This document shows, piece after piece, positions 28,580 to 45,609 of a stretch of DNA of 50,732 bases. Source of the stretch: Candidatus Benthicola marisminoris (GTDB lineage Bacteria > Gemmatimonadota > Gemmatimonadetes > Palauibacterales > Palauibacteraceae). The translations under genes and the position numbers were made by a program. Position 1 is the first letter of the stretch. The number at the start of each line of letters is the position of its first letter. The notes below the pieces were generated by a model. It was not told where the DNA came from, made no database searches, and saw only the letters and a list, made by a program, of their open reading frames with translations. The stretch is taken from the NCBI GenBank assembly GCA_023554335.1, contig JAMJQR010000205.1:1-50732 (forward strand). The letters are read 5' to 3'.

Positions 28580-28587
28580 GATCTCAG

Positions 28588-28757
28588 TTTGTCAGGGACG
28601 GGTGCACGGAAGTCGGTGTGAATCCGACGCGGCCCCGCCACTGTGAGAGGTAGTCGCCCGGGGTCGCGATTCCGGAGCTGACTCTGCCGCATTCCGGTCA
28701 CTGGACGCCGTTCCGGGAAGGCCGCGGCAGGACCTCGAGCCAGGAGACGTGGCCTGT
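28588..28757 (+). ncRNA. cobalamin (B12) riboswitch
   Basis: Conserved core GGAAGTCGGTGTGAATCCGACGCGGCCCCGCCACTGTGA, then CACTGG...CCGGGAAGG and GAGCCAGGAGAC. Followed by B12 transport genes. Confidence 0.93.
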
Positions 28758-28820
28758 CCTTGCCCAATGTCGCTCTTCGCGGGAAGGGTGTGGGCGAGCC
28801 ACGCGTGTGGTGACTCGGTC

Positions 28821-29756
28821 ATGCCCGGCCTTTCTCTGAAAGGACGGGTTTCGTTGTTCAGGAAGCTGGTGTGGTTGGGGGTTCTAGCGTTGCTGCCTTC
28901 CGGCCTCAGGGCGGCCCCCCAGGCGGCACAGGTCCGGCTCGTGGACGATGCGGGACGGGAGGTTGTGCTTCCGACGCGACCTACGCGGATCGTGTCTCTC
29001 GTTCCCGTCGCTACCGAGATCATCTTCGAGCTGGGTGAGGGGCGCCGGGTGGTCGGGCGCTCTCGCTTCGACGACTACCCTGCGGAGGTCGTAGCCGTAC
29101 CCGACGTCGGTGATGCCATCCGCCCCTCGGTTGAAGCCGTGCTGATGAGGGATCCGGACCTCGTCATTCTGGTGGGAGGCTCGGACAATGCGCAGGCTGC
29201 CCGTGATTTCGAGCAGGTTGGCGTGCCGTTCGTCGTCTTGCTCTTCAACACGCTCGACCAGCTGCAGGTCAACATGTACCGCCTCGGGTATCTGGTCGGC
29301 CGTGACGAAGAGGCCGCCGGGATGTGGCAGGGGGTGCTGCTGGACCTGGAAGCGGTCGCCGAGTCCGTCCGCGGCCGGCACCGGCCTTCCGTGTACTACG
29401 ACCTCGGGTATCCCCCGGCATTCACGGTCGGCGCCGGCAGCTACCTGGACTCACTGATCAGTCTGGCCGGTGGTCGGAACGTGTTTCACGAACTCGCTCC
29501 GCCGTCTCCGCGGGTCAGCCTGGAGGCGATACTAGCGCGCGATCCCGACGTACTTGTAGAGCCGACCATCGGGACCGATGGCGTGGAGGCCCTCGATCCG
29601 GGCTCCCGGCCGGGATGGGAGAACCTGAGAGCGGTGCGTGAGGGCTCCATCGCCACAGTTCCCTCCGATCTATTGCACCGCCTCGGTCCGAGAATCGGGG
29701 AAGCGGCTCGAGCCCTGGCGTTGGCTCTCCATCCGGAACTGCGGGGGCCGGAGTGA
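28821..29756 (+). CDS. btuF: cobalamin ABC transporter substrate-binding protein (BtuF-like)
   Basis: VVLPTRPTRIVSLVPVATEIIFELGEGRRVVGRSRFDDYP; signal peptide after ATG 28821; immediately after the riboswitch. Confidence 0.85.
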   Translation: MPGLSLKGRVSLFRKLVWLGVLALLPSGLRAAPQAAQVRLVDDAGREVVLPTRPTRIVSLVPVATEIIFELGEGRRVVGRSRFDDYPAEVVAVPDVGDAIRPSVEAVLMRDPDLVILVGGSDNAQAARDFEQVGVPFVVLLFNTLDQLQVNMYRLGYLVGRDEEAAGMWQGVLLDLEAVAESVRGRHRPSVYYDLGYPPAFTVGAGSYLDSLISLAGGRNVFHELAPPSPRVSLEAILARDPDVLVEPTIGTDGVEALDPGSRPGWENLRAVREGSIATVPSDLLHRLGPRIGEAARALALALHPELRGPE

Positions 29757-30733
29757 GGAGCGCGACCTGGATCGGTGCCCTGATGGCCCTCGCCGCCAGC
29801 CTGGCCGTGGGGATGCTCCTCGGCCCCGCTGACCTGGGCCTTGGGGAGTGGGCGGCTGCCCTGCGAGGTGAAGCCGCGCCCGCGACGACGATCGCGTGGA
29901 GGGTACGACTTCCGCGTGTAGTCACGGGAGCGCTGACAGGCGGAATGTTGGCTGTCTCGGGTGTGGTCTTCCAGGCACTGCTGCGGAATCCTCTCGCGGA
30001 GCCGTACCTCCTGGGGGTTTCGTCCGGGGCCGCCCTCGGGGCTGTCTGTGCCCTCGCCCTGGGCCTGTCCGGGTCGGCGTACTTCGTTCTTCCCCTGGCG
30101 GCCCTCGCCGGGGCCGTCGTCGCCATCTCCGTGGTCTTCGCGGTGGCTCAGGTCGATCGGCGGATGGACACCCGGGTGCTGTTGCTGGCCGGCGTGGTCG
30201 TGAGTGCGTTCCTAAGTGCCTGCGTTCTCCTTGTGCTCACCTTCGTCCGAGCTGAGACCCTCCGGTCGATCTTCTTCTGGACGATGGGAAGCCTGTCAGG
30301 GGCCTCATGGGGGATGATCCGCGCGATGGCGCTGTACGGTCTTCCTGCCGTCGTTCTCCTATACGGGTTGAGTCGGCATCTCGACGCCCTTGCATTGGGA
30401 GAGGAGACGGCCGCCCACCTCGGGACCGAGACCGAGACCGTCAAGCGGCTCGCCTTCCTCCTGGCGTCGCTTCTGGCCGCCGCGGCGGTCTCGGTCGCCG
30501 GCGTGATCGGCTTCATCGGCCTCGTCGTGCCGCATGCCGTTCGGCTGGTGGGAGTGCGCGACCATCGAGCTCTCACGCCGATCTCCTTCCTGGTAGGCGG
30601 CAGCGCCCTTGTCCTTGCCGATGCCGCAGCGCGTACGGCCGCTGCCCCAATGGAAATCCCGGTTGGCGTCGTCACTGCGTTCCTCGGGGTCCCGCTCTTC
30701 CTCGTTCTGCTTCGCCGGACGGTTCGACCATGA
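29753..30733 (+). CDS. btuC: cobalamin ABC transporter permease (FecCD/BtuC family)
   Basis: WRVRLPRVVTGALTGGMLAVSGVVFQALLRNPLAEPYLLGVSSGAALG; GLVVPHAVRLVGVRDHRALTP. Confidence 0.9.
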   Translation: MRSATWIGALMALAASLAVGMLLGPADLGLGEWAAALRGEAAPATTIAWRVRLPRVVTGALTGGMLAVSGVVFQALLRNPLAEPYLLGVSSGAALGAVCALALGLSGSAYFVLPLAALAGAVVAISVVFAVAQVDRRMDTRVLLLAGVVVSAFLSACVLLVLTFVRAETLRSIFFWTMGSLSGASWGMIRAMALYGLPAVVLLYGLSRHLDALALGEETAAHLGTETETVKRLAFLLASLLAAAAVSVAGVIGFIGLVVPHAVRLVGVRDHRALTPISFLVGGSALVLADAAARTAAAPMEIPVGVVTAFLGVPLFLVLLRRTVRP

Positions 30734-31527
30734 TGTGCCGGCTGCAGGCCGTCTCCTTCCGCTATCCCGGCGGTGAGAACGACGCTCTCAGCGAGGTGTC
30801 CCTGGAGGTGGACCGCGGGACTCACCTGGCGCTCGTCGGACCCAACGGAGCCGGGAAGAGCACTCTGCTGAGGATTATCACGGGTGTCCTCACAGCCCAG
30901 CGCTGGATCGTCACGGTGCAAGGCCGGGAGGTCAGCCGTTGGAGGCGAAGGGATCTCGCACGCACCGTTGCGGTGGTATCCCAGTCCGGTGAAGTGGATT
31001 CGGACATCCGGGTGCAGGACCTGGTGGGAATGGGCCGCAATCCACATGTGAAGGCCTGGGCTCCGCTGGCGGCGAGGGACCGGAGGATCGTCGAGGAGTG
31101 TCTGGAGGCCGTCGACCTGGCGGCGCTGGTCGATCGTCGAGCCGGCGAGCTGTCCGGAGGCGAGCTCCAGAGGGCTCGTCTGGCACGTGCGCTGGCGCAG
31201 GAGCCGGCTCTCCTGCTCCTGGACGAGCCGACGGCGCACCTGGACCTGGGGCACGAGACGCGCTTCATGGAACTGGTGCGTCAACTGACACAAAAGAAAT
31301 CGCTTACGGTAGTCGGTATTACACATCACTTGAACACCGCGTCACGATACGCGGACCACATGCTCCTGCTCTCGCACGGGAGTGTGGTGGCCAGCGGTCG
31401 CCCGGAGGCAGTTCTCCAACCCGACACTCTCGACCGGGCGTTTGGCTGGCCCGTTCACGTTGCGGACCTTGGGCCGCTCGGTCATCAAGTGATTCCGGCT
31501 CGGCGCGTCGGGGAGGGTCAGCCCTGA
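30730..31527 (+). CDS. btuD: cobalamin ABC transporter ATP-binding protein
   Basis: LVGPNGAGKSTLLRIITG, LSGGELQRARLARALAQEPALLLLDEPTAHLD; ATG overlapping the btuC stop. Confidence 0.9.
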   Translation: MMCRLQAVSFRYPGGENDALSEVSLEVDRGTHLALVGPNGAGKSTLLRIITGVLTAQRWIVTVQGREVSRWRRRDLARTVAVVSQSGEVDSDIRVQDLVGMGRNPHVKAWAPLAARDRRIVEECLEAVDLAALVDRRAGELSGGELQRARLARALAQEPALLLLDEPTAHLDLGHETRFMELVRQLTQKKSLTVVGITHHLNTASRYADHMLLLSHGSVVASGRPEAVLQPDTLDRAFGWPVHVADLGPLGHQVIPARRVGEGQP

Positions 31528-31532
31528 GAGTC

Positions 31533-33671
31533 ATGGAGAGCCTTCCGGCGGTTGGCTTCGGCCGTTGCGGCCACGCTGTAGGAGCGGCGGTCATGATGGC
31601 CGCTGCTGGCCAGCTTTGCGCCGGTCGACTCGCTGCGCAGGAGGCGGTCCTCACCCTCGAGGTGCGCTCTCAGGCTGGCACCTCGCTGTCTGACATTGTC
31701 GTGGTCGCGGAGCCGCTTTCCGCAGATGGGCATCCAACTGGCGAGGGGTGGCAGGTTAGCGCAGAGGAGTCGGTAGCCCGGTTGAGCCTCGATGCCGGGG
31801 GGCGCTACCAGATCCAGACGCGGGCGGCGGGCCACCTGGAGGATGTCCGCGAGTACCTGGCTGCGGGGCCCGATTCCGTGCGAATCGTTCTTCGGGTGAG
31901 CCCGTATGATCTTCCTGCAATCGAGGCGAGGGTCGACCGCCCGGTCGGTCGTCCGATCGACCGAATTCGGTTCCAGGACGCATCGCTTACGTACGCCAAC
32001 GTCGCGGAGTGGTTGGGCGACCTTCCCGGCTTGCAGGTTCGGGGACGCGGGCCGGGCGGACGGCAGGTCCTGTCGGTTCGGGGGAGTCGTCCCCAGGACG
32101 TGCTCGTGCTGCTCGATGGGGTGCCTCTAAACGATCCATTGACCGGGCGCGCCGACCTGTCTGCGCTCCCCACGTCTACGCTGGAGTCTGGCAGTCTCGT
32201 CAGGGGAGCTTCATCGGCGCGATTCGGATCCGGGGCTTCTGCCGGAGTACTCGTTCTCGACTCACGTCGTGCCCGTCGCGGAGAGGTGGCGGGAGGCCTC
32301 AGGATGGGCTCTTTCGGGGTCGTGGGCATGGATCTGCATGCCGGTGCCGGGGGTGGGGAGCGACAGCTGGCTCTGTCGCTCTCGGCGGCGCGGGCGGACA
32401 ACGATTTCCTGTTCACACCCTACGGGGGGACCGGACAGGGGCCTGAGACCCGGCGGAACGCGGACACGAAGAGCTTCCACGGGGCGATTCGCGGAGCGCT
32501 TGGAGCCGTGTACGGCAGCCTCCGGCACGATCGGTCGGAGCGGGGGGTGCCGGGGCGGGCTGGAACGACCCTGTTTGACCGAGCGAGGGCCCTGGACCGT
32601 GCCTGGGTCGGTTCCTTGGGAGTCGAAGGAGGGTTCGGCACCGTCTCGGCGTCCACGTCGACACGGCAGCTCGGTTACCGGTCGGGCGAATCGGATCCGA
32701 TGGCATGGAACAACGTCCGGGACCTTCGAGTGGCTGCCGAGACAGGGATTCCCGACATACCGTTGATGCTCACCGGACGGCTGACCGGAGAAATCGTCGA
32801 CGGCGACGAGATCGACGGTACGCCGAGTCGATTTCAGGCTGGCGCCGCGGCTGCGGGTTTCGTCGAGATAGGAACTGTCCGCCTTGATCCGGCTCTCGGA
32901 ATCGATGTTGCGGATGGACGTCTTATCGCGAGCCCCGAGCTGGGCGCGACCTTGCGGATCGGGAGGGCGTCCAAGGCGTGGGGACGCGTAGGGAAGGGCT
33001 TCCGTCTGCCGACGTTCGGAGACCTCTACTTCGCGTCGCAATACAGTCTCCGCCCGAATCCAGATCTGGAAGCGGAGCGAGTCACGCTGGACGCCGAGAT
33101 CGGCTATGGCGGTCAGGTCTCGTGGGGGAACCTGAGAATCACCGGCTCCGCGACCGGCTGGTTGAGGCACAGCCGGGATCCGATCATCTGGCTGTCCAGC
33201 TCGACGGCCGTTTGGAGTCCCCAGAACCTGGGAGAACTCAGGGCGTCGGGCGCGGAAGGGGATCTGACGGTAGAAGCTCGCCCCGGCGCACACGGGGGAT
33301 GGCGAGCGCAGCTCGCGGGCTCAATTCAAAAGAGCCGGGTGGGATTCGGTGCGAACCGGAACTCGCTTCCGTACGAACCTGCTGTTGCGGGTCGGCTTAG
33401 CCTTCAGGGCTGGGTCGGAACGGTGGGGGGACGTCTCGACGTGCGCTATACCGGCGCGCGCACCACGAGCATCGCCGCAACCCGTAAGCTGCCTGGATTC
33501 CTGACCCTCGACGTTTCCGCGCGTCACCAACTCGAGGCCGGTCGTCTCGGTCTCGGCCTGCTGATCCGAATGGAGAACGTCACCGACCAGCGCTACCAGC
33601 TGGTCGAGCTATTCCCCGAACCGGGTCGTCGTTTCTCCGTACGGCTCGAACTGAGGAGTGCGAGCACATGA
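31533..33671 (+). CDS. btuB: TonB-dependent outer-membrane receptor (BtuB-like by context)
   Basis: Plug domain LPGLQVRGRGPGGRQVLSVRGSRPQDVLVLLDGVPLNDPLTG; C-terminal LGLLIRMENVTDQRYQLVELFPEPGRRFSVRLELR. Confidence 0.85.
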   Translation: MESLPAVGFGRCGHAVGAAVMMAAAGQLCAGRLAAQEAVLTLEVRSQAGTSLSDIVVVAEPLSADGHPTGEGWQVSAEESVARLSLDAGGRYQIQTRAAGHLEDVREYLAAGPDSVRIVLRVSPYDLPAIEARVDRPVGRPIDRIRFQDASLTYANVAEWLGDLPGLQVRGRGPGGRQVLSVRGSRPQDVLVLLDGVPLNDPLTGRADLSALPTSTLESGSLVRGASSARFGSGASAGVLVLDSRRARRGEVAGGLRMGSFGVVGMDLHAGAGGGERQLALSLSAARADNDFLFTPYGGTGQGPETRRNADTKSFHGAIRGALGAVYGSLRHDRSERGVPGRAGTTLFDRARALDRAWVGSLGVEGGFGTVSASTSTRQLGYRSGESDPMAWNNVRDLRVAAETGIPDIPLMLTGRLTGEIVDGDEIDGTPSRFQAGAAAAGFVEIGTVRLDPALGIDVADGRLIASPELGATLRIGRASKAWGRVGKGFRLPTFGDLYFASQYSLRPNPDLEAERVTLDAEIGYGGQVSWGNLRITGSATGWLRHSRDPIIWLSSSTAVWSPQNLGELRASGAEGDLTVEARPGAHGGWRAQLAGSIQKSRVGFGANRNSLPYEPAVAGRLSLQGWVGTVGGRLDVRYTGARTTSIAATRKLPGFLTLDVSARHQLEAGRLGLGLLIRMENVTDQRYQLVELFPEPGRRFSVRLELRSAST

Positions 33672-34807
33672 TCCCCCGCTTTCCCCGGCTGCCTGGAGCC
33701 GCCGCTCGTGCGTTCTACGCCGTTTCACGAGCTGCGGTCTTGGCAGTCCTGGCAGTTTGCGCGTGCGCCGACTCGGCTACCGAGCCCCCTCCACCGGCGG
33801 CCACCGACCTGTTGGTTCTGAACTCCACGGGTCAGACGCTGGCCGGATTCAGTGTCGGTGAGGGGCTCTCGGAATCGGGGGCCCCGGTGGATCTCGGGGC
33901 CGGATTCGACGGATCTGCGTTCGACGCCTCGAATGCCCATGTCGTGACCACGGTTTCCAGCTTCGGCGGAAGCCGGGTGGTCTTCGTAGACCTGGAGAGC
34001 CGGGACGTGCTGACCAGCTCCTTTCCGGAGCCGGAATCCGATCTCGCCAACCCGTCGGCTGCCTCCTTCGACGGGTCGGGTACCGCGTGGGTTGGGGGAC
34101 GGGGCAGTGACGCGATCTATCGCGTGCGACCGGGCGACCTGCAGGCGGAGAGGATCGCAGGCTCGGTGGGGAGCTTTATCGAGCGCGTAGTCCCGATCGG
34201 AGAGCGTCTGTATGCAGTCGACGCCAACATCGATGACGAGGGCGGAACGTACGCGCCGCTGGGACCGGGCCGGGTCGTAGTCCTCTCGAGGTCGGGGGAA
34301 GAGGAGCGTGTGATAGATCTTCCGCCCGCCGTCTTCAATCCGACCGACGCGGTGGCGGCCGGCGGGCGGCTGATCGTCCTCGCCGCCGGTTCGCTCGATC
34401 CCGAGACGTTCATGCCTGTTGGAGATGGAGCCCTCGTGGTCCTGGACAGCGAAACGGGCGCAACCATCTCGTCCCAGTCCCTCGCGGCGAACGGAGTGGA
34501 GCTGGAGCTGGGTCGTGACGGACTCGTGTACCTGACGACCACTGTCGATTTTTCCGCGCTGAGCGTGTTGGTGTTCGACCCGGCGGCAGGGGCATTCGTG
34601 CGCGGACCCGGTGACCCGGTTCTCGTCCGGGGAGCGGATGGAGCGAGGGTGGATTGCTGGGTGGCCACGGGGCTGGCCGACGGAAGGATCGTCTGTGCGA
34701 CTTTCAGCTTCGCCGAAGCGGGCCGTCTCGTGCTGTTCGGGTCCGACGGGCAGTTCATCGATGAGGTGCCCTCCGGATTCGGGAGTACGGATGTCGTGCT
34801 TCGCTGA
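33668..34807 (+). CDS. predicted beta-propeller lipoprotein, candidate BtuG-like cobalamin-binding partner of the TonB receptor
   Basis: Signal/lipobox-like AVLAVCAC|ADS; repeated propeller blades (VVFVDLESRDVLTS, IYRVRPGDLQAERI, VVVLSRSGEEERVIDL, LVVLDSETGATISS, VLVFDPAAGAFVRG, LVLFGSDGQFIDE); overlaps the receptor stop. Confidence 0.65.
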   Translation: MIPRFPRLPGAAARAFYAVSRAAVLAVLAVCACADSATEPPPPAATDLLVLNSTGQTLAGFSVGEGLSESGAPVDLGAGFDGSAFDASNAHVVTTVSSFGGSRVVFVDLESRDVLTSSFPEPESDLANPSAASFDGSGTAWVGGRGSDAIYRVRPGDLQAERIAGSVGSFIERVVPIGERLYAVDANIDDEGGTYAPLGPGRVVVLSRSGEEERVIDLPPAVFNPTDAVAAGGRLIVLAAGSLDPETFMPVGDGALVVLDSETGATISSQSLAANGVELELGRDGLVYLTTTVDFSALSVLVFDPAAGAFVRGPGDPVLVRGADGARVDCWVATGLADGRIVCATFSFAEAGRLVLFGSDGQFIDEVPSGFGSTDVVLR

Positions 34808-34867: not shown

Positions 34868-35602
34868 GTGCCGATCGTGACCACACGCAGCGTGGTGCTG
34901 CAGACGCATCCCTACAGTGACACCAGCAAGATCCTCCGCTTGCTGACTCTGGATCACGGCCCCCAGTCGGTCATGGCAAAGGGCGCCATGCGGCCCAGGA
35001 GCCGGCTGTCGGGTGTGCTCGAACCGTTCGCTGATGGGTCGGCCACGTTCTATCTCAAACCGGACCGAGATCTGCACACACTCTCCGATTTCGAGCTCGG
35101 GACCGAGAGACAGGCTCTGGGCCGGGACCTCGGACGGTACGCAGCGGCCAGCGTACTCTGCGAGCTGGTGCTGCGCCTCGCCCCGGCCGAGAAGGACCCC
35201 GTGCTTTTCGACGTGCTCACTCAAGGTCTCGACGCCCTGCTGGCCGCGGACCTGGAACACGTGTCGGGCACTGCGATCGCGGCCATCTGGATGCTCGTGA
35301 ACGTGCTCGGATTCGCACCCGATCTCTCGGGCTGTACTCGCTGCGGGGATCCGATCGAGACCAGGGGAGGGCGTCTTGACGTGCGGGAAGGGGTGCTGGT
35401 CTGCGAGGATTGCTTGCCCGGCGGAACGTCGCTGCCGGCGTCGGAGATCCATGTTCTGCGGCGGCTGACGTCCGGGCACATCGTGGTCAACGACCTCTCG
35501 AGCCGGCAGCTCACCCTGCTCGTCGACTTTATCCGCCACCATGCGGCAGAGGGGAAGATGCTTCGTTCACTCGATTTCTTGCTCGGAGAGGAGCTCCGTT
35601 GA
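34868..35602 (+). CDS. recO: DNA repair protein RecO
   Basis: [41 protein letters not shown]; zinc finger CTRCGDP...CEDCL. Confidence 0.88.
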
Positions 35603-37485
35603 GGTCCGGGGTCGTCTTCGGTACCGCCGGCCATGTGGACCATGGCAAGACGGCGCTGGTCCGGGCGCTGACGGGGGTCGAGACGGATCGGTGGGCCGAG
35701 GAGCGCGAGCGTGGGCTGACGATCGACCTCGGATTCGCGCCGGTCGACACCGGTACGGATGTCGACACGGGAATCGTCGACGTGCCCGGGCATGAGGACT
35801 TTGTCAAGAACATGCTTGCCGGCTCCACCGGGATCGATGTGCTGCTCCTTGTGATCGCGGCGGACGAAGGCCCGATGCCTCAGACTCGGGAGCATCTTCT
35901 GGTCTCACGGCTGCTGGGTATCGACAGCGGATTGGTGATACTCAACAAGGTCGACCGGGTGGATGACGACTGGCTGGACCTCGTCCGGGAGGCGACTCGA
36001 GAGGAGATGGAGCGGACTTTGGGGCACGCAGACTGGCCGGTGTACGCCGTCTCCGCGACCAGCGGCGAAGGGATCCCGGAGCTGCGCCAGGGCCTGGAGG
36101 AAGCTGCCGCGGGGGTCCGAAACCGAGAGGCGAACGACCTGTTTCGGATGCCCGTAGACCGCGCATTCAGCGTCAGTGGGGCGGGCACGGTCGTGACGGG
36201 CACGACCTGGAGCGGCCGTGTGGCCGTCGGCGACCGGGTCGTCCTTCTCCCGGGTGGGCAGGGAACGCGTGTGCGAGGTCTGCAGGTACACGGGGCGCAC
36301 CGCCAGGAAGTAGGACCGGGGAGCCGCTGCGCCGTGGCTCTGGTTGGGGTGGATGCCGGGGACGCGGATCGGGGCAACGTACTGGTGGGTGGCGACGGCT
36401 GGCGGACTTCCTCCCGGCTCGGAGCGTGGGCCGAGATCCCGGGCACGGTCAGGCGCGAGCTGGAGCACGGACAGAGAGTCCGGTTGTTTCTCGGAACCGA
36501 GGAGGTCATGGCCAGAGTCAGGACCCTCGGGCGCGGTCCGCTGCTGCCAGGCCATTCGGGTTGGATCGCTCTGGATTGCGAGCGACCGGTCGTTGCGCGG
36601 GTGCGCGACCGATTCGTGCTCCGCTTTTATTCCCCGGTGACCACGATCGGAGGCGGGGCCGTTGCGGCCCTCGATCCGGCGAGGGGCTGGAGGGAGCAGG
36701 TTGCGAATTGGCATGAGGTGCTCCATGGCCCCGCGCCGGTGGCTCTGGCGGCTGCAGTTCGTGCGGCTGGAGGGATCGGTCTCGCGGACGAAGACCTGCC
36801 CCTCGCAACGGGGCTGCCTTCGGTGATCGTCGACGAGGCATCCCGTGCGGGGGGCGACATCATTCGAATCGGCGAGGTCTGCTATGCCGCGGAACAGCTG
36901 CGAGCGACCAGGTTGGCCGTGCTCTCGTACCTGACCGAAGCGCACGAGCGTCGGAGACGAGCGACGACGGAGCCGCTGGAATCCGTGCGCGCGGGCCTTT
37001 CGGTGCGGTTCTCACCGGCCCTGATTCAGGCGGCGATTCGCGAGCTGGAGGACGAGAGTGAGGTCGAGGTCGTGGGGCCCGGAATCCGTCGGTCGGATCA
37101 TTCCGCGGGGCTAACGGACGATGAGGAACGGGTAATCCGTGACATCGTTCGGACTCTTGCCGAGGCCGGTCTGGCCCCGCCCACACCAGCGGAATTGTCG
37201 AAGGCCGTCGGCGTCGGGCGGGAGGTCCTGAACGACCTCCTCCGGCTGCTGATCGAGCGGGGCGAGTTGCTGCAGATCACTCCGGAGATCTTCCTCACCG
37301 CAGGGGTGGAGGAAGAGGCGCGGCGTGTCATCCGCGAGGTCGCGGCGACCTCGCCGGCTTCTCCCGGGGACTTCCGGAAGCAGCTGAACCTCAGCCGGAA
37401 GTACCTGATTCCGCTTCTCGAGTATATGGATCGGACCGGAGTCACCCGGCGCACGCCGGAAGGACGCCTCGCGACCCGGCGCTGA
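35599..37485 (+). CDS. selB: selenocysteine-specific elongation factor SelB
   Basis: [58 protein letters not shown]-terminal winged-helix region ending [30 protein letters not shown] start at 35599. Confidence 0.93.
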
Positions 37486-38522: not shown

Positions 38523-38882
38523 GGGGGTGAACCAGATTCGACGCGTTTTCGGATCCGGAGGTAGCGTGCCGAGGTTTCCCGGAACCTCGTGAAACACCGG
38601 GAAAACACACAACTGCCAACGACAACTTGGCTTTGGCCGCGTAACTAACGTGGCCCGTTCACTGGATTACCCGCCCGAGGTGGTCCTTTGAGCGCCGATA
38701 ATTCGGGCTGGTCCCTGCAGAACGCCGCGGGCTGCAGGGGCGAGATGGCGCAAGCCGGACGTGGCTGGCTGACAGCGGGCCGTCGAGGAGCCCAGCGGTT
38801 GGCGAGACGAGATCCTCGAATACGCACGTAGAAACCAATGGGGAAGGCTTCGCGGACCCGGGTGCGATTCCCGGCACCTCCA
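38523..38882 (+). ncRNA. ssrA: transfer-messenger RNA (tmRNA); tag ORF 38615-38644 encodes ANDNLALAA*
   Basis: 5' GGGGGTG pairs with 3' CACCTCC; AGATTCGACG; PK1 38570-38602; GCC AAC GAC AAC TTG GCT TTG GCC GCG TAA; T-arm GGGTGCGATTCCC. CCA not encoded. Confidence 0.96.
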
Positions 38883-38889
38883 TTTCAAT

Positions 38890-45512: not shown

Positions 45513-45609
45513 GGGGGCGGATGGCGGCCGGTGTCGCCTGCGGTCTTCAAAACCGTTGCGAGGCGCGAGTAGCGTCTTGGGTGGGTTCGACTCCCACACG
45601 CTCCCGCCA
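45513..45609 (+). tRNA. selC: tRNA-Sec(UCA), CCA encoded
   Basis: 6-bp D stem GGCGGC-CGGT-GTCGCC, anticodon loop CTTCAAA, long variable arm CGAGGCGC-GAGTA-GCGTCTTG, T-arm GTGGG-TTCGACT-CCCAC, acceptor GGGGGCG/CGCTCCC, GCCA end. Confidence 0.95.

Follow-up and report, generated by a model that had tools for sequence, protein, structure and literature searches.

The window, by which we mean the whole 50,732-nucleotide stretch of DNA analysed here, comes from a member of the Gemmatimonadota with relatives in the Palauibacterales, among them Candidatus Palauibacter, and it carries an operon for cobalamin import in which a riboswitch is followed on the same strand by btuF, btuC, btuD, btuB and, as the last gene, one for a beta-propeller lipoprotein (Table 1). 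This gene order had been proposed in a first-pass annotation made from the sequence alone, and it is borne out by Rfam (RF00174) and Pfam domain matches; the 4-nt overlap described there between the receptor and propeller genes is likewise confirmed by the coordinates, the propeller ORF overlapping the btuB stop codon (33668-33671 shared). Indeed, that description proved right on every point that could be checked. The btuF product matches the NCBIfam BtuF model at E 2e-23, under the equivalog cut-off. Downstream of the propeller gene lie recO and selB.

Table 1. Features of the riboswitch-led cobalamin import operon in the window.
Feature	Position	Strand	Evidence
Cobalamin riboswitch aptamer RF00174, operon leader	28583..28771	+	Rfam cmscan 72.2 bits, cut-off 31.5, E 6e-16
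btuF, periplasmic cobalamin-binding protein (start codon approximate)	28821..29756	+	PF01497 (Peripla_BP_2) E 3e-24
btuC, permease	29753..30733	+	PF01032 FecCD E 1e-87; NCBIfam BtuC E 6e-73
btuD, ATPase	30733..31527	+	PF00005 (ABC_tran); top NCBIfam match corrinoid ABC transporter ATPase E 3e-69
btuB, TonB-dependent cobalamin receptor	31533..33671	+	Plug E 2e-18, barrel E 6e-18
Predicted BtuG-like seven-bladed beta-propeller lipoprotein, 379 aa, ATG start	33668..34807	+	AF2, Foldseek, BtuG profile match, lipobox

The AF2 model of the propeller (pLDDT 90.2, pTM 0.84, from an alignment of 22 Gemmatimonadota sequences) contains 28 strands, which we assigned from the DSSP string to seven four-stranded blades, the C-terminal strand serving as the inner strand of blade 1 and closing it; the earlier count of about 6-7 blades agrees with this predicted seven. 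When the model was compared with the PDB by Foldseek, as the first-pass annotation had suggested, BtuG proved to be the closest solved relative: among 1,472 matches, ranks 1-15 are all occupied by BtuG1, BtuG2, BtuG3 or 3DSM, 8PTF among them (E 8e-13, TM 0.68/0.74), at sequence identities to BtuG of 11-18% in the Foldseek alignments. The first match of another kind is Lp49 (3BWS, E 4e-10), and the YVTN protein 1L0Q also comes after the BtuGs, as does the siderophore lid XusB, which appears at about rank 45, well after every BtuG. With the XusA/XusB siderophore transporter of Bacteroides, the window pair shares the architecture of a propeller lipoprotein and a TonB receptor, whereas the context of the window propeller is cobalamin, not iron.

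What does sequence add to this structural likeness? No Pfam or NCBIfam family covers the propeller, and a single-sequence phmmer search turned up nothing but designed Pizza propellers and a single weak match to a G-protein beta subunit, which we set aside as a repeat artefact. A profile of the window propeller's own family (A1), run against 177,635 PDB sequences, matched BtuG1 (8BLW_B, from the BtuB1G1 complex) and 8PTF/8PTD (titled BtuG2 and BtuG1, respectively, in the PDB) as its only natural proteins; the one further match, at E 0.13, was to a fragment of a designed Pizza propeller. A phylum-wide profile (A3) matched all BtuG entries at E 7e-16 to 1e-7, with BtuG2, BtuG3 and 3DSM at 1e-8 to 1e-7, and matched the archaeal YVTN propeller 1L0Q at E 8e-18, slightly better than BtuG1; apart from these, every propeller stood at E>=2e-5. 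Since the Foldseek ranking and the two profiles agree, the kinship with BtuG, as judged from sequence and predicted fold, is distant yet specific, inside the wider YVTN/YncE superfamily. The first-pass annotation had offered an independent or a diverged BtuG-like system, and it is the second that we favour, because the family profile detects BtuG1, BtuG2 and BtuG3 by sequence; the first ranks lower. It would mean that a YVTN/YncE propeller had been recruited separately beside btuB, so that the likeness to BtuG is convergent, with B12 capture still possible, and the match of A3 to 1L0Q, a surface-layer protein, as good as that to BtuG1, is what such an origin would lead one to notice. We nevertheless consider separate recruitment unlikely, given that A1 finds BtuG1 but no other kind of natural propeller, that all BtuGs rank first in Foldseek, and that the paired receptor, too, has its nearest matches among BtuB proteins from BtuBG complexes. 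The superfamily fold and blade motif are shared with 1L0Q and Lp49 as well; we know of no tie of either protein to btuB or to cobalamin riboswitches.

The receptor itself has ten best PDB sequence matches that are all BtuB, in the order Bacteroides thetaiotaomicron BtuB2 (8BMX, E 2e-18) and BtuB3, then Escherichia coli BtuB, then BtuB1, and among NCBIfam models it is nearest to TonB-B12/BtuB, yet far under the equivalog cut-off. Its AF2 model is of moderate quality (pLDDT 69) and was used for ranking Foldseek matches alone; the top three are BtuB3 and BtuB1 from BtuBG complexes. Thus the BtuB proteins of BtuBG complexes (BtuB2, 8BMX; BtuB3, 8P97/8P98) provide its best matches in both sequence and fold, with about 19% of residues identical when the folds are aligned, and unlike them the window receptor is predicted to carry an extra N-terminal beta domain (residues 37-120). 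At locus L065, the gene immediately after the propeller encodes a further TonB receptor, with a Plug domain (L065:1078-3207, minus strand), and L125 shows a comparable layout.

The system had been placed outside the Bacteroidetes, and the genome is indeed one of the Gemmatimonadota, in which the propeller is widespread. Within the window's own family, the propeller or a fragment of it is found in 32 of 35 genomes (it is missing from G001, G007 and G011). Across 395 genomes of the phylum, A1 has matches in 82 and A3 in 180 at E<=1e-8, the weakest of which may be other propellers. These searches used the protein profile alone and were blind to gene context, and it is the context that then recurs: btuB lies directly upstream of the propeller in 36 of the 41 distant loci inspected, and a same-strand riboswitch lies upstream in 32 of the 41 within the stretch examined. 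Of 75 further propeller matches, 56 have RF00174 on their own strand at a distance of 2.2-6.5 kb upstream, where about 0.1 would be expected by chance from 1-3 riboswitches per roughly 4-Mb genome; combined, 88 of 116 propellers have a same-strand upstream cobalamin riboswitch against a chance expectation of about 0.2, and many of those without one lie at contig ends. Because the arrangement of riboswitch, btuB and propeller is repeated in dozens of genera, chance is excluded, and the pairing with riboswitch and BtuB, whose conservation in relatives had been proposed as a check, is a feature of the phylum. The gene order varies (btuF-C-D-B-G, btuB-G-F-C-D, or btuB-G alone), and therefore the unit that is kept is the btuB-propeller pair, not the operon. 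A plasmid search found nothing.

There are exceptions to this pairing. At eight loci the propeller follows btuFCD without an adjoining btuB (L045-L048, L050, L149, L150, L152), and several Palauibacter-type genomes have, between recO and a BFN-domain gene, a solo propeller with neither a riboswitch nor btu genes beside it (for example, L043:9820-10986 and L044:9075-10217). We had taken the Palauibacter-type genomes whose btu genes lie elsewhere to have propellers without btuB and dropped this idea for them when the broader profile found, in three of them (L051-L053), a second propeller beside a btuB that has been relocated under a riboswitch. The solo copies would fit a propeller that does not bind B12 at all but covers BtuB in a structural or protective role, for example as a barrier to phage or bacteriocins, or is a surface protein of unrelated function that happens to lie in the operon; we regard this as very improbable in view of the strong linkage to riboswitch and btuB across deep divergence, the conservation of a single face of the propeller (see below), and the fact that the closest structures are all corrinoid binders. 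In G007, one of the genomes without a BtuG-like gene, an FG-GAP repeat propeller lipoprotein is encoded downstream of a riboswitch-linked TonB receptor (L059:4427-5557, minus strand), possibly another kind of lid.

How is the propeller anchored, and on which side of the membrane? The N-terminus bears out its first-pass description as lipobox-like: a signal peptide of about residues 1-32, ending in LAVLAVCA, precedes the lipid-anchor Cys33 and the residues ADS. All 43 homologs aligned from across the phylum (20-66% identical to the window protein) have this cysteine, and the only other invariant column of the alignment is the start Met; the flanking residues vary, and nearly all homologs with a placeable start have a lipobox-like motif. 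The segment after the anchor Cys is often rich in D/S in the homologs, and no known Bacteroidetes lipoprotein surface-export signal was recognised in these segments. The window's own genome also encodes a SusC-SusD pair together with a lipoprotein amylase-like gene (L183:64-6016, minus strand; SusD assigned by PF07980, SusC and the amylase by eye). The residues that follow the anchor Cys are alike in the lipoproteins of that locus (CDITTEP, CGGDSGTGP) and in the propeller (CADSATEP), and these shared residues are a possible surface-export signal of the Gemmatimonadota.

The propeller could instead be a lipoprotein of the outer membrane that faces the periplasm, where it would bind cobalamin and pass it from BtuB to BtuF and not cap BtuB from outside. 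Such a placement would suit a protein whose lipidation is certain as a motif only and for which no export signal was identified, as well as the several loci in which the propeller follows btuFCD without an adjoining btuB. We judge it distinctly improbable: the usual partner is btuB, the nearest structures are BtuGs of the cell surface, and the SusC-SusD pair makes lidded TonB receptors plausible in this organism, SusD homologs in Bacteroides being surface lids. Exposure of the window propeller on the outer surface appears probable, by analogy with these systems.

Cobalamin binding by BtuG is reported to be very tight, in the femtomolar to picomolar range. Would the Gemmatimonadota propeller bind the vitamin as well? 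Its loops B-C and D-A, which lie on one face, are more conserved within the family than the loops of the other face (permutation p 0.00015), and the contrast is weak when homologs from the whole phylum are aligned (p 0.08); conservation of this kind is what a face for a ligand or a partner would show. BtuG2 holds the corrin ring in its central cavity by hydrogen bonds from blades 1-4, with Trp194, Trp272 and Tyr316 among the residues involved (PMC10404256); at 11-18% identity, these pocket residues have no reliable mapping onto the window propeller. The organism, for its part, is most likely a B12-dependent non-producer that scavenges the vitamin, because its genome has three B12-binding domains, the corrin-ring synthesis enzyme CbiL/CobI was below the cut-off in all 35 genomes searched, and a published survey of the Palauibacterales found no B12 synthesis pathway, but did find btuF and btuB (PMC10469786).

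We hypothesize, with a probability of roughly 0.8, that the gene encodes a diverged BtuG, i.e. a lipid-anchored capture protein for cobalamin that docks on BtuB. Like BtuG1, BtuG2 and BtuG3 of B. thetaiotaomicron (8PTD, 8PTF, 8BLW, 8OKV, 8BMX) and 3DSM of B. uniformis, the protein is a predicted seven-bladed propeller lipoprotein that directly adjoins btuB and is under cobalamin-riboswitch control, and it shows detectable sequence kinship with them; unlike them, it is only 11-18% identical, belongs to another phylum, shares one operon with btuFCD and is without a recognised Bacteroidetes export signal. By analogy, the outer-membrane propeller would sit as a lid on the neighbouring BtuB in a 'pedal-bin' arrangement, bind cobalamin (or corrinoids) and pass the captured vitamin to BtuB for TonB-driven import and onward transfer to BtuF and BtuCD, with the riboswitch rendering the entire import chain B12-repressed.

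BtuG has been described as found in Bacteroidetes only (PMC6143338), and lipoprotein-capped TonB transporters, by Abellon-Ruiz et al., as seemingly exclusive to that phylum (PMC10404256). The Gemmatimonadota family was missed because the search of Wexler et al. used BlastP and human gut genomes only (PMC6143338), and in our own search of non-subscription literature no paper linked BtuG with Gemmatimonadota. If membership in the BtuG family stands, a phylum-wide family contradicts the first of these statements, and confirmation of the lid geometry would contradict the second. More broadly, lidded BtuB-BtuG import of B12 may operate throughout the Gemmatimonadota, having either existed already in the common FCB ancestor or passed between FCB phyla, a proposal to which we give even odds. 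If it is true, lipoprotein-capped TonB vitamin transport has long been a trait of free-living bacteria in soil and sea and is not a speciality of gut Bacteroidetes, and the lidded system of the Gemmatimonadota would have its own surface-export signal. With this family, the question of how lidded vitamin transporters arose becomes open to testing, and the family is also a putative source of diverged corrinoid-binding scaffolds from bacteria of soil and sea, where competition for B12 shapes communities.

Elsewhere in the window lie a tmRNA gene (38523-38885) and a selenocysteine tRNA gene (45513-45605), and selB occupies about 35560-37485; selenocysteine thus appears to be in use in this organism.
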